In this document: positions 48,530-53,400 of the stretch, piece by piece | How the letters are laid out: each line of letters begins with the position of its first letter | Numbering within the stretch: the stretch's first letter is position 1 | Assembly (NCBI GenBank): GCA_035236585.1 | Contig: CP141139.1 | Location: 17,624,990-17,688,989 of the forward strand | From: Warburgia ugandensis | Lineage: Eukaryota > Streptophyta > Magnoliopsida > Canellales > Canellaceae | DNA: 64,000 bases | Reading direction: 5' to 3' | The notes under the pieces: model-generated | Database searches by the model: none | Told to the model about the DNA's origin: nothing | The model's input: the letters and a program-made list of their open reading frames with translations, nothing else | Translations under genes and position numbers: made by a program

Positions 48530-48881
48530 ATGTCTAGTACTCTTAAATGGCTAAGAGTCCTAACCATTGAGGACACTAGGACCTTATTTATTTTTCTTCC
48601 TTTTTCCTAAAAGAGATCAACATAAACCAAAGTGTGTCCTTAGGCTGGGGGAATAATCTTTCCTTGTCTTTTCTCTCTTCTATTTTGAGTTCGCCACTCA
48701 AATTTCGTATGTAAGGTCTCTCTTCCTAACAGCGCATCAACGACATCCTAGATTACAGTGTTAACGGCGCATGTGCGACTGCTACTGAGGCTGAGGCTAA
48801 TATGCGACATCCCAGAAGGAATACCCAAGATGGGATCGAGCCCACACTCGGTTCAAGGCTTTAAAGAATAAATACCTGAGT
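47727..48881. other. No gene recognised; short repeats
   Basis: It contains a (TTA)n tract at 47881-47906 and (GA)n at 48491-48526. Minus-strand open frames around 48234-48576 are CT-rich artefacts. The end (48720-48880) is less A+T-rich but has no recognisable coding sequence. Confidence 0.45.
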
Positions 48882-48886
48882 GAATG
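48882..48886 (+). repeat. Left 5-bp direct repeat of the TRIM cluster (GAATG)
   Basis: GAATG directly precedes TGTCACAGCCCC. The same GAATG follows GGGGCTGTGACA at 50954-50958. Five base pairs is the usual target-site duplication of LTR elements. Confidence 0.7.
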
Positions 48887-49834
48887 TGTCACAGCCCCGT
48901 TGGGCCCCCAGCAATGATATTGTCCCATGCGCACGCGCACGGGTTTTGGTCCTTACCCCGCGTCCAGGGGAAAACGAGTCATTCGTGTTATCAGAGATAC
49001 GCAGCGGACGATATTGTCCCCTCTGGGTCCCCTCAGAGTATCTTGGGCTATTGCTCAGAGTATCTTGGGTCCCCTCACAAGGCCAACCCTCAACCCATCT
49101 TGCGCACCCTCAACCCATCTTGGTCGCCCGCAGGGTTTTGTTCTGGGATTCTCCCAGACGCGTCATTGCTGTGAAGGGAGAGAACCCCCCTTATAACCAG
49201 GCCCATCACCCCCCCTAGCTGATGTGGGACTAACTCTCCTGCGTCCCGCCCTCAGACCATCTTGGGTCCCCTCACAAGGCCAACCCTCAGGCCATCTTGG
49301 CACGGTAGCCATCTCCCGCCTACGGGACACACGCCCCCGTGTGTCACCACACGAGCGACGGTGCGGCTAGCCATCCACCCTCGGGGTCGGGTTTTGGCTC
49401 TGATACCATTTGTCACAGCCCCGTCGAGCCCCCAGCAATGATATTGTCCCGTGCGCACGCGCACAGGTTTTGGTCCTTCCCCCGCGTCCAGGGGAAAACG
49501 CGTCATTCGTGTTATCAGAGATACGCAGCGGACGATATTGTCCCCTCTGGGTCCCCTCAGAGTATCTTGGGCTATTACTCAGAGTATCTTGGGTCCCCTC
49601 ACAAGGCCAACCCTCAACCCATCTTGCGCACCCTCAACCCATCTTGGTCGCCCGTAGGGTTTTGTTCTGGGATTCTCCCAGACGCGTCATTGCTGTGAAG
49701 GGAGAGAACCCCCTTATAACCAGGCCCATCACCCCCCTTAGCCGATGTGGGACTAACTCTCCTGCGTCCCGCCCTCAGACCATCTTGGGTCCCCTCACAA
49801 GGCCAACCCTCAGGCCATCTTGGCATGGTAGCCA
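48887..49834 (-). mobile_element. TRIM family A element, complete, minus strand
   Basis: This is a terminal-repeat retrotransposon in miniature. The LTRs are 48887-49311 (425 bp) and 49411-49834 (424 bp), nearly identical. On the minus strand they begin TGGCTACC and end GGGGCTGTGACA. The internal part is only 99 bp (49312-49410). It holds a primer-binding site TGGTATCAGAGCC (49396-49408, minus strand; complementary to the initiator methionine tRNA 3' end) next to the LTR end, and a purine-rich GGCGGGAGA before the other LTR. The LTR contains a TATA-like GGTTATAAG. There is no coding capacity; open frames on both strands here are artefacts of GC-rich repeats. Confidence 0.88.
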
Positions 49835-49885
49835 TCTCCCGCCCAAGGTGACACACGGGGGCGTGTGTCCCGTAGGCGGGAGAAA
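49835..49885. repeat. Centre of the TRIM A inverted repeat
   Basis: TCTCCCGCC, the complement of the A-family purine tract, is followed after a few bases by GGTGACACACGGGGGCGTGT and GTAGGCGGGAGA. These are the same internal sequences in the opposite direction. The orientation of family A therefore flips here from minus to plus. Confidence 0.75.
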
Positions 49886-50511
49886 TCGACACACCCCACC
49901 CACCGTGGGGTCCACAGTAACAATATTGTCCGCTTTGGGTCGGGGCCCGCACGGCTTTGTTCTCACCCTGGCTTCCCAGGGTAAAACGCGTTGTTACTGT
50001 GAGGAGTGTTCCCACTCCTTATCAACCAGCCCAGCTCCCCTCTCCAGGTGGTATGGGACTAACTCTCAACCGTCGCCCCCTCGGCCTTCTCCGCTTCGCC
50101 ACCCCTCACAAGGCCATGGTACCTCACGGTGCCTGAGCCGGCAAGGCTAGATCTCTCCCCCTTAGGGGACACACGCCCTCGTGTGACCGAGGCACGCATG
50201 CGGTTAGCCACCCATCACCACGAGGAGACTGGCTCTGATACCAAATCGACACACCCCACCCACCGTGGGGTCCATAGTAACAATATTGTCCGCTTTGGGC
50301 CGGGGCCCGCACGGCTTTGTTCTCACCCCGGCTTCCCAGGGTAAAACGCGTTGTTACTGTGAGGAGTGTTCCCACTCCTTATCAACCAGCCCAGCTCCCC
50401 TCTTCAGTCGGTATGGGACTAACTCTCAACCGTCGCCCCCTTGGCCTTCTCCGCTTCGCCACCCCTCACAAGGCCATGGTACCTCACGATGCCTGAGCCG
50501 GCAAGGCTAGA
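49886..50511 (-). mobile_element. TRIM family B element, complete, minus strand, nested
   Basis: The LTRs are 49886-50151 and 50246-50511 (266 bp each, about eight differences, mostly transitions), with a 94-bp internal part (50152-50245). The internal part carries a primer-binding site, GGCTCTGATACCA read on plus at 50231-50243, and a GGGGGAGA purine tract. Both the internal domain and LTR phrases (ATGGGACTAACTCTC, AAAACGCGT, CTCACAAGGCCA) resemble family A, so the two are related. Its ends are unusual: on the minus strand the LTR starts TCTAGCC and ends GTGTCGA rather than TG...CA. It sits exactly between the purine tract of one A copy and the LTR start of the next. No target-site duplication is visible. 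Confidence 0.8.
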
Positions 50512-50512
50512 T

Positions 50513-50953
50513 TGGCTACCGTGCCAAGATGGCTTAAGGGTTCGCCTTGTGAGGGGACCCAAGATGGTCTGAGGGCGGGACGCAGGAGAGTTAGTCCCAC
50601 ATCGGCTAGGGGGGGTGATGGGCCTGGTTATAAAGGGGGTTCTCTCCCTTCACAGCAATGACGCGTTTTCCCCTGGACGCGGGGGAAGGACCAAAACTCG
50701 TGCGCGTGCGCACGGGACAATATCATTGTTGGGGGCCCGACGGGGCTGTGACAAAAGGTATCAGAGCTAAACCTCGACCCCGAGGGTGGATGGCTAGCCG
50801 CACCGTCGCTCGTGTGGTGACACACGGGGGGGGGGGGGGTTCTCTCCCTTCACAGTAATGACGCGTTTTCCCCTGGACGCGGGGGAAGGACCAAAACCCG
50901 TGCGCGTGCGCACGGGACAATATCATTGCTGGGGGCCCAATGGGGCTGTGACA
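50513..50953 (+). mobile_element. TRIM family A element, plus strand, with deleted second LTR
   Basis: The LTR at 50513-50753 (241 bp, TGGCTACC...CTGTGACA) contains TTAGTCCCACATCGGCTAG and GGTTATAAAG (TATA-like, 50627-50636). It is followed by a primer-binding site GGTATCAGAGCT (50757-50768) and internal sequence to ACACGGGG. A run of 14 G (50826-50839) then fuses the internal part directly to LTR sequence TTCTCTCCCTTCACAG, so the first half of the second LTR is missing. The second LTR ends CTGTGACA at 50953, followed by GAATG. Relative to the minus-strand copies this LTR lacks about 184 bp. Confidence 0.85.
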
Positions 50954-50958
50954 GAATG
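50954..50958 (+). repeat. Right 5-bp direct repeat of the TRIM cluster (GAATG)
   Basis: Matches GAATG at 48882-48886, directly outside the opposite end of the cluster. Confidence 0.7.
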
Positions 50959-53400
50959 GGAATCCGATAGTTCTACCAGCCTGGGAAGAGGAGTTAGAGG
51001 AAATAAAGTTGATATAAATAGCTTCATATTAGCGAATTGCCTCTTTTGCCCGTTGGGCGCTGTGAGGAGTTTGCTCCATCTCCGATACTTATCGTCGAGC
51101 TGCTCCCTGCCCTCTCATGTTTTAGAAAAGAATGATGAGAAAGAGTTTGGAAAAGGAAGACTCTTCAAGTAAGAGTGGGTCTCACTTCTTTCCCTCTCTC
51201 CCTTTTTGAATTATGAAGGAACATAGAGACTAGATTGGAATTGAAAATTTGAAAGTTTTGATGCCAAACACACTATCAAAGTTTAATTCTTAATGGCCGA
51301 TTGGAGGAGTCCAAGTTTGCTTCAATGTTGGCTTTATCCTATGAGATTTTGCAATTACATCCTAGCACCTTATAATTTTGGATGGACTATAGTTCTTCAA
51401 ATCATTCAAGATTGAAGCCCATTGTGCAATGGATCTTACGATCTTGTTTTCAAGGTTGGAGGACTTCAATTTCCTTTAAAAAATGTATTGCATTCTGCTT
51501 AGACTGTATGGTCCTCAAACACTAGTTTCTAAAGACTTTTCTTCTTTATTTTTTCTTTGGAATGCATTATTGAACAATGTGGTTCTCTACAAATTTTGAA
51601 GCACTCATTGTGCACCAAAAATTGCCAATTATTTGGTCCCAAAATCCACTGAAAAGAGGGGCATCATAGGTAGAGATGCTCTATATTCTAAAGCATTTAG
51701 GTAATAACAACATATAGAAGGATCAAACCACCCTCTTGACATCAAATTGTCATAGGTAAGAGCTTATCAAGTGATATGGTCCAAGTGAAAATCGCAACTT
51801 TTGGTGGGATGATGGTATTCCATGTAAAGTTTGCATGAATTCATTGATCACCTTCGTGAGCCATAAGATAGTATTTTGATTGAATCATAAAATTCTCGTT
51901 TGTGCTAGGATTTTTTGTGGATTAATAAAGACCCTATCAAGGTTGCCAAAAGCTTAGCAAATTGGTCTTCTTCAAGACTATTTTTTTTTATTAAGATGAA
52001 GCTCCCACCTTACTAGGATATTTTACAGAGAATATATAAATTTTGTGTTGTATACGGTCACAAGCATGACATAACTTTTCATGTGATTATTTAAGGACTT
52101 GGTCGCCCAACAAGGGACAAGTGCCACCTTGAACCTCTGACCTAGCATAACGAGAAGAGGTGCCATGTTGTCTGCCGCCAACTATGTTGGATAGCTTTCA
52201 ATAAGTTCAATTATGTTACCTTGTAGCATAAGGGCCTTTTGTGTAGCCTCCAAAAATTATTTCCATAATCTAATCTCTAGAGATTTTTATTGGCACATAC
52301 AAAGTGTAATATAAGAAGTGTAATAATTTAACCTTTTTTGGAGTTATATAGTTGATGCCTTTCAAAGAGACTCAATGTGTGAATAAGATTAACTTAAATT
52401 ATCTTTAGGGCAGTGATAATTGTGTCCCTCGATTTTTCTCATGATTCCCTTGCTAAAAAGTATAAATTGCTATAACTTAAAGATCAAAATCACTTACAGA
52501 GTTGACCTTGACCTAGATGGGTCATCTTCTGAAATATATTGGATGATCTGGTCATTGTCATAATTAGTTGTAAAATGAAGGCAAAGTGTTGTACCCTCCA
52601 TTTTGCAACTAAAAGTATCAGTAATAGGATAACCAGTGAATGGGAATATCAAAGCCCAACTAGGTCAAGGGAATTATTTTAAATGAGTTTGGATTTTTGG
52701 GAATTCTAGCCCACCTTGAGTTTTAAATATCAGGTTGAGGGGCACATACATTAGTGTACCTTAGCTTCATCTATATTTGAGGAGTCGTTTAACTTGTTCA
52801 GCCCCTATGTTTAGCCTATGTATGGAAATTAGGCCATATTATAATTCTAACCATTATTTTAGTTTTCAAAATTTCTATATATAGACGGTCCTGATTCAAA
52901 TCACATAGAAACATATGCTGTAAATATTCAAAGAGACAGATTCATGGTGTACATTTAATGTAGTAGATTCTAAACAAGTTCCATGGTTAAGATATTTTGA
53001 AAATATTTTCTAAAATCACGAAAACGCTAGAGTCTACTTAAAGACGCTATTTATGATATGAGTTTACTAGGACTCATATTTGAGTACCAATTTAACTGAC
53101 AACGAGTTTGCATTTTTCATATGATCATATATTAGCAAGTTGCTTATGAAATGCATAGGGTGAAAAGTAATTTATAAATGAAGCAAGTCTAAAGTTTGGT
53201 TAAAATTGAACCTTATATATAATTATAATTCTTTGTAGTATTTTAAAAACATTGAACTAGTTTATAAAAGTGCGGTACAAAAAGATGATTCAGAAGATTT
53301 CTTCGAGGCATTAAATATTGGATATTTGTTAATTAATTATCGACTCTCAAATGACGTCCAAGAAGAGGAGGGGAGAGACAGAGACAGAATAGAATAACAG
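50959..53400. other. No gene recognised
   Basis: A+T-rich DNA with no protein motif that I recognise on either strand. GTCGCCCAACAAGG and similar phrases do not form a known element. It may be old transposon sequence. Confidence 0.4.

Follow-up and report, generated by a model that had tools for sequence, protein, structure and literature searches.

Arrays of TRIM-derived elements with two outer U5 ends in the Warburgia ugandensis genome

Textbook retrotransposition of long terminal repeat (LTR) elements needs one U3 and one U5 end, the U5 end being the tRNA-primed start of minus-strand DNA, and a target-site duplication (TSD) of 5 bp is of the kind made by the integrases of such elements. 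The closest described systems are arrays of terminal-repeat retrotransposons in miniature (TRIMs). According to the excerpts on which we draw, TA-TRIMs are short, non-coding LTR elements that have a primer-binding site (PBS) and a polypurine tract (PPT), form arrays with shared LTRs and carry 5-bp TSDs (PMC4717578); a figure legend of that 2016 paper (Fig. 2C) lists a maize SMART array "with two inverted TRIMs" and the TSD CTTCA, and the arrays of that figure were verified by PCR and sequencing. The maize Wukong TRIMs likewise occur as multi-LTR arrays (PMC4528315), while complex insertions in the Triticeae carry one 5-bp TSD and led their authors to invoke abnormal template switching (Sabot and Schulman 2007, PMC1950507). 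Here we describe an inverted array in a 64,000-nt stretch of the Warburgia ugandensis genome (contig CP141139.1, positions 17,624,990 to 17,688,989; the whole stretch is referred to as the window). This array occupies window positions 48887-50953 and is built from two TRIM families, A and B, for which an outer pair of U5 ends proved to be the usual architecture among the copies examined.

The left TSD of the array, GAATG at 48882-48886, is followed by TGTCACAGCCCC from 48887 onwards, while GGGGCTGTGACA runs up to 50953 and is followed by the right TSD, again GAATG, at 50954-50958. When up to one mismatch is allowed, the window contains five copies of TGTCACAGCCCC, where 0.09 would be expected; four copies are exact, and all four lie inside the array. 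Inner copies of this outer end continue into a PBS-like GACA-AA-TGGTATCAGAGC (49397-49408, minus strand), and the PBS-like sequence of the right arm has one mismatch. Since the inner copies adjoin a PBS-like sequence, both outer ends are U5 ends of the family A LTR, in agreement with the original prediction, which had been made from the sequence and had also recognized the GAATG flanks. That prediction spoke of a palindromic TRIM cluster. The inverted arms are indeed present, the best being 188 nt at 93% and 154 nt at 97%, but the array is a 2,067-bp mosaic of A and B rather than a clean palindrome.

To look for the empty site, 250 bp of left flank (ending in GAATG) were joined to 245 bp of right flank, and this query was run against the genome of 14 contigs and 1.12 Gb. 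It gave 13 matches, two of which were the window's own halves and two of which crossed the join, namely C6:73221766-73222168 (96%, query positions 1-403) and C11:10520239-10520507 (96%, query positions 135-403). The 131-bp pieces taken from C6 and C11 both hold a single, uninterrupted GAATG and no remnant of either arm. The target itself (window 48637-48886 and 50959-51203) is a low-copy repeat, related pieces of which are found on C6, C11 and further contigs. We take the C6 and C11 sites to be paralogous copies of this repeat, not alleles; they represent the pre-insertion state.

The flanks of other arrays point the same way. Two U5 ends were resolved in 41 arrays from all groups, with up to three mismatches allowed in the end motif of A and up to two in that of B. 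Their 5-bp flanks matched at all five positions in 30 arrays, at four in five and at three or fewer in six, while pairing the flanks of different loci (1640 pairings) gave 5/5 in 0.12% and at least 4/5 in 2.3% of cases. The sixth flanking base agreed in 10/41, which is the chance level. The outer ends were A/A in 26 arrays, A/B in 10 and B/B in five, and nine of the 10 mixed arrays had a 5/5 TSD. Two more B arrays outside the 41 have 5/5 TSDs as judged by eye, L080 (76 bp, CTACT) and L082 (TTAGC). Because the empty sites hold one GAATG and 30 of the 41 comparable arrays have exact TSDs, we conclude, as originally proposed, that the array was inserted in one piece, as a DNA bounded by U5 on both sides, with duplication of 5 bp of the target. 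The alternative raised at that time, that two opposite insertions recombined and the GAATG match is due to chance, has nothing specific in its favor, even though A and B copies often lie close together; the empty sites without arm remnants and the 30 exact TSDs practically exclude it. We attach equally negligible probability to an assembly artefact. Palindromes are generally prone to read artefacts, but these would not yield differing 5-bp duplications at 30 loci, nor asymmetric arms of mixed family.

Among other copies, we considered the 20 loci that best matched the window element, a set in which the inverted query biases the form of the loci but not their flanks. Together with the window array, both U5 ends were resolved in 19 of 21 (L020 has a single orientation and L014 lacks a right end), and 17 of these 19 had a 5/5 TSD. 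Exact matches to the A U5 end GACGGGGCTGTGACA number 164 on the forward and 177 on the reverse strand of the genome, against 0 for the reversed control. The first 100 listed matches form 44 clusters, of which 35 were examined, 31 as a sample drawn blind to structure and four that were already in the top-hit set. A minus-to-plus switch was present in 30 of the 31 sampled clusters, the remaining one (L078) being cut off by the fetched stretch, and no canonical LTR-internal-LTR insertion was shown among the 31, ten of which lacked one or both resolved ends. The 21 clusters with both ends resolved had flanks matching at 5/5 (12), 4/5 (four) or 3/5 or less (five). Within ∼265 kb there are three nearly identical A arrays whose flanks are also similar (C2:6298185-6302918, C2:6524428-6527782 and C2:6560960-6565693), apparently products of a segmental duplication that carries a TRIM palindrome; all three are within the sample of 31, and two are among the 21 (2/5 and 4/5).

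For family B, the U5 pattern has 319 forward and 294 reverse genome matches, against 1 and 0 for the control. We then compared the strands of neighboring U5 ends no more than 4 kb apart among the first 100 places in each of the A and B lists. In this order test, which was run without a canonical TRIM family of the same genome as control, there were 45 outward switches (minus then plus; 27 in A and 18 in B) versus one inward switch, and the latter lies in an array of two palindromes in a row (C2:239865). On contig C1 both U5 lists are complete for copies with an exact U5 end, to which this census is confined, and a tally by hand found 24 of 27 clusters to be inverted: 20 solely from the order of their ends, some of these without being fetched, one from its sample map (C1:23161370) and three after fetching (L084, L085 and L086). 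The remaining three are the near-canonical L091, L087, which is of ambiguous form, and C1:99618187, which is known from its U5 match alone. The U3-end list (183 forward and 190 reverse matches, of which the first 100 listed were used) adds about eight A clusters on C1 in which no exact U5 end is present. Of 60 mapped clusters, none was flagged as having a U3 outer end. Inverted arrays are between 76 bp and 3.7 kb long. Other A copies with two outer U5 ends, whose search had been recommended at the outset, were thus found many times; beyond what had been anticipated, the inverted U5/U5 form is usual in this genome for those copies of A and B that were examined, and arms of the two families are mixed.

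Within its arms the window array is derived from TRIMs. It starts with a long-form A LTR (48887-49311, minus strand), the U5 end of which is the left outer end, followed by an A internal domain (49312-49410, minus) with the PBS-like TGGTATCAGAGC at 49397-49408 and, judged by eye, a PPT-like AGGCGGGAGA adjoining the LTR, and by an inner long-form A LTR (49411-49834, minus). An inverted 37-bp piece of the A internal domain (49847-49883, plus), 100% complementary to 49312-49348, separates these modules from a complete family B TRIM on the minus strand (49886-50512), which consists of a B LTR (49886-50152), a B internal domain (50153-50245) with a PBS-like sequence at 50232-50243, and a second B LTR (50246-50512). 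This last LTR and the right arm abut precisely with their U3 ends, at 50512/50513. The right arm, on the plus strand, comprises a short-form A LTR (50513-50753), positions 1-77 of the A internal domain (50754-50830) with the one-mismatch PBS-like sequence at 50756-50767, and a 5'-truncated A LTR (50835-50953; short-form positions 123-241), the U5 end of which is the right outer end. The long form of the A LTR differs from the short form by an insert of ∼183 bp (window 48985-49168 and 49508-49691, minus strand), which is rich in CCAAGATGG/TGAGGG-type repeats and contains a second GGACAATAT motif.

The A LTR measures 241 or 424 bp with an internal domain of 99 bp, the B LTR ∼267 bp with an internal domain of 93 bp, and both families are arranged in arrays. 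As in TRIMs, TGGTATCAGAGC lies two bases past the A LTR end, PPT-like sequences precede the 3' LTR (AGGCGGGAGA in A and GGGGGAGAG in B, by eye), and the duplications are of 5 bp. We presume that TGGTATCAGAGC pairs with the initiator tRNA-Met; the one locus fetched for this purpose gave no tRNA with ARAGORN. A 22-mer from the 3' half of the tRNA has 12 matches in the genome, which are perhaps tRNA-derived repeats, and L088 contains at 1490-1560 a tRNA-iMet-like sequence that was not recognized as a tRNA. Among the 16 open reading frames (ORFs) of at least 60 aa in the window array, none that starts with ATG exceeds 104 aa, and the four longest (246, 133, 119 and 112 aa) matched no Pfam family at E 0.01. 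Where TRIMs have TG...CA ends with one U3 and one U5 end outside, the outer ends here are U5 and U5, and the B LTR begins with ATCTAGCC (ATCTAG), without the TG expected of an integrase substrate. A and B are therefore TRIM-derived and TRIM-like within an arm, but as inserted they are not canonical TRIMs. A third, diverged TRIM family, C, adjoins an A array in L059 (2205-2410); its U5 end, ...CCTCGCACTATTACA, is followed by a PBS-like TTGGTATCAGAGCC, it has an inverted repeat of its own as seen by eye, and the two exact genome matches of its U5 end are too few for a control family. The Rfam search of the window array gave a MIR839 precursor match at 50375-50640, which spans the head-to-head B/A joint and is below threshold (32 bits, gathering cut-off 200), and three other arrays compared with known RNA families gave only sub-threshold mir- and snaR models; these matches probably reflect hairpin-likeness. 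Hammerhead and 5S families were not listed for the stretches searched.

The same anatomy bears on the idea that the A and B ends are terminal inverted repeats of a DNA transposon moved by a Ginger-like or TDD-4-like transposase. Outer inverted repeats, TSDs of fixed length and small forms resembling miniature inverted-repeat transposable elements (MITEs) would all fit, and terminal-inverted-repeat elements with Gypsy-like transposases have been described, as have TDD-4 and TDD-5 with 5-bp TSDs (PMC2836005, in the part consulted). Nevertheless, we regard this origin as very improbable: the interior consists of LTR-PBS-internal-PPT-LTR arrays, unlike ends (A with B) pair, and the 21 mapped top-hit loci are, by eye, all different mosaics rather than a constant element. 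The four ORFs checked of the 16 in the window array belong to no Pfam family, although a coding partner elsewhere was not searched for.

To compare how the arms meet, we took the inner arm ends from 61 minus-to-plus joints, which left 118 arm ends after removal of two segmental duplicates. Of these, 23 (15 A and 8 B) lie at LTR positions 1-4, the U3 end, against about one under a crude uniform expectation worked by hand, and eight lie at internal positions 1-8, the start of the PBS, against about three; the others are scattered. The smallest elements, of 76-128 bp and with TSDs, combine an LTR stretch with a short (∼22-47 bp) inverted U5 end. L060 (128 bp), for example, consists of 27 bp of inverted U5 and LTR positions 139-241, and L076 (115 bp) is nearly its mirror image. 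The same short form is found in family B in L079 (116 bp) and, by eye, in L080 (76 bp), and C1:44754711 (125 bp) is a short form with a piece of the PBS. We also considered two other sources of the joints. The RNA 5' end was rejected as their sole cause, as the predicted transcription start site (TSS) zone (A 135-159) holds only 10 of the 118 arm ends and the excess at the U3 end and the PBS start is clearer. Inversion by integrase autointegration is not preferred, since eight of the 23 U3-end arm ends are of family B, which lacks a CA-3' on the minus strand.

We consider it likely that the array is one retrotransposition product of the non-autonomous A and B elements, formed by folding back or joining of minus-strand cDNAs. 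A and B RNAs would be packaged together in the particles of an autonomous element, and their minus-strand cDNAs, with U5 at the 5' ends, would be joined or folded back at their growing 3' ends, through template switching by the reverse transcriptase or self-priming between minus strands. Such joining could take place on a full-length strand (at the U3 end), at the PBS or on a shortened strand. The U5/U5 product would then be made double-stranded, at a guess by extending into the tRNA primer and then priming anew at the PBS copy, and would be inserted by an integrase acting in trans, for which neither a U3 end nor a completed second strand transfer would be needed. The U5 ends would lie outside because any joint sits at the growing 3' end of a minus strand, and joining at this end would account for the strand bias in the order test as well as for the mixing of A and B arms, the variety of joints and the short forms.

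The LTR also contains a covarying inverted repeat, which is consistent with this fold-back route. The nine bases directly before CGCGTTTT are complementary to the nine bases after GGACAATA; in A the first stem starts 24 bp past the start of the TATA box (position 141 versus 117), and the second ends ∼22-27 bp from the U5 end. There are seven perfect 9-bp stem types, five in A (with AATGA, ATAGA, AACGA, AAGGA and, once, AGTGA cores) and two in B, and the stem is perfect in 38/47 A copies and 36/53 B copies. Over 13 distinct pairs in A, on average 8.31 of nine positions are complementary, compared to 7.25 (sd 0.18) after shuffling, and over 16 distinct pairs in B the mean is 7.94 compared to 7.34 (sd 0.15), where it should be borne in mind that related copies are not independent. 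RNA folding predicts that the stem encloses two hairpins in both families, and the predicted minus-strand fold of B includes the covarying stem. The repeat lends support to the fold-back route but falls short of proof. In window 50649-50753, minus strand, complementary termini (TCACAGC/GCTGTGA) would also allow the strong-stop strand to pair end to end.

A number of observations weigh against the route as a whole or against parts of it. No cDNA intermediate was seen. Six arrays agree at three or fewer of the five flanking positions (L011, L061, L064, L071, L073 and C2:6298185). Among clusters with several ends in the exact-match lists, 6 of 32 for A and 11 of 29 for B have them on a single strand only, partly because the opposite arm has an end of the other family or a changed end. 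The B copy L091 (363-984) is an LTR-internal-LTR insertion bounded by U5 at one outer end and, at the other, by the U3 end with nine further bases; ACGCT flanks it on either side, and the true U3 start of B may lie a few bases further upstream. This only near-canonical copy seen is useful for defining the U3 end of B. Concerning the joints, the zones with an excess of arm ends were partly chosen after seeing the data, beyond the crudeness of the expectation, and at least six of the 23 U3-end arm ends extend a few bases into the PPT. Of the 118 arm ends, only 10 + 4 in A and 3 + 2 in B fall into the zones surrounding the inverted repeat of the LTR. Beside the 61 outward joints there are six inward (plus-to-minus) ones, one of them in the window array, and since these six lie inside arrays, some arrays hold more than one inversion. 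As for the repeat, the stem is perfect in only 74 of all 134 copies found, minus-strand DNA folds only mildly better than shuffled sequences (z -1.55 and -1.71), the best fold of the window A copy pairs the strand ends, TCACAGC with GCTGTGA, and not the covarying stem, and the pairing-preserving changes could stem from templated conversion rather than selection. The TSS, finally, is a prediction from the TATA box.

The mixed character of the joints, with inserted bases in 30/61 and overlaps of at least 3 nt in 11/61, also fits the main rival explanation, host end joining, which differs from the favored route mainly in the enzyme. Here, cDNAs whose U5 end is normal but whose U3-side end is faulty or exposed would be joined U3 to U3 by nuclear enzymes, and the integrase would insert the dimers through their U5 ends. 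Exact or near-exact U3-to-U3 joins do recur (at 50512/50513 in the window, in L012, and within 3 bp in L009), though they may descend from one join. Random joining should, however, also yield U5-U5 centers and U3 outer ends. As one inward versus 45 outward switches were seen and U3 outer ends in 0 of 60 mapped clusters, end joining would need protected U5 ends; in addition, self-priming is the simpler explanation for the 76-128-bp forms and their short inverted U5 tags. We therefore judge end joining to be unlikely, and retain joining or fold-back during minus-strand synthesis as the favored route.

The many U5/U5 copies with proper target duplications show that, in nature, U5 ends alone can suffice for integration, and dozens of sequenced products are at hand from which the reverse-transcription error or design behind them can be read. 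For annotation they are a warning, as tools that rely on direct terminal repeats would overlook or misclassify them, taking the smallest for MITEs. With predicted outward promoters and long inverted arms, these loci are also candidates for hairpin RNA and small RNA. More tentatively, A and B may have given up the U3 end and multiply as fold-back U5/U5 cDNAs, the covarying repeat being kept for self-priming of the first cDNA. If this were true, an LTR retroelement would in effect have turned into a terminal-inverted-repeat element while still copying through RNA, and could form a bridge between LTR retrotransposons and integrase-type DNA transposons.

In the open-access literature we found one direct precedent, the inverted maize TRIMs with a TSD, and no report of a family living in this way, which may exist elsewhere; the parts consulted of PMC1950507, PMC7215508, PMC3281118, PMC6934838, PMC12312487 and PMC10462705 contain nothing comparable on inverted or palindromic LTR forms. 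In the excerpts of PMC4717578 the inverted form is a single example given without a mechanism, whereas here it is usual among the examined copies and reaches down to 76 bp. The LTRs of Wukong arrays are "usually" co-oriented, and their arrangement is attributed to recombination between elements in the portion of PMC4528315 used. The Triticeae insertions are three-LTR sets in the excerpts of PMC1950507, and the text of that paper makes no mention of inverted, opposite, palindromic or head-to-head forms. A parallel for the proposed self-priming exists in HIV-1, where, according to the part of PMC4668388 consulted, a stem-loop in R lets the first cDNA, the minus-strand strong-stop, prime itself; there it is an aberrant side reaction that is suppressed by the nucleocapsid protein, while here its products would be the integrated form. 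Finally, Ginger and TDD-4, as described in the consulted part of PMC2836005, resemble A and B in having inverted terminal repeats and are moved by a transposase of retroviral type, but they encode this transposase and the TSD of Ginger1 is 4 bp, in contrast to the retroelement anatomy of A and B and the absence of recognized coding in the window array.

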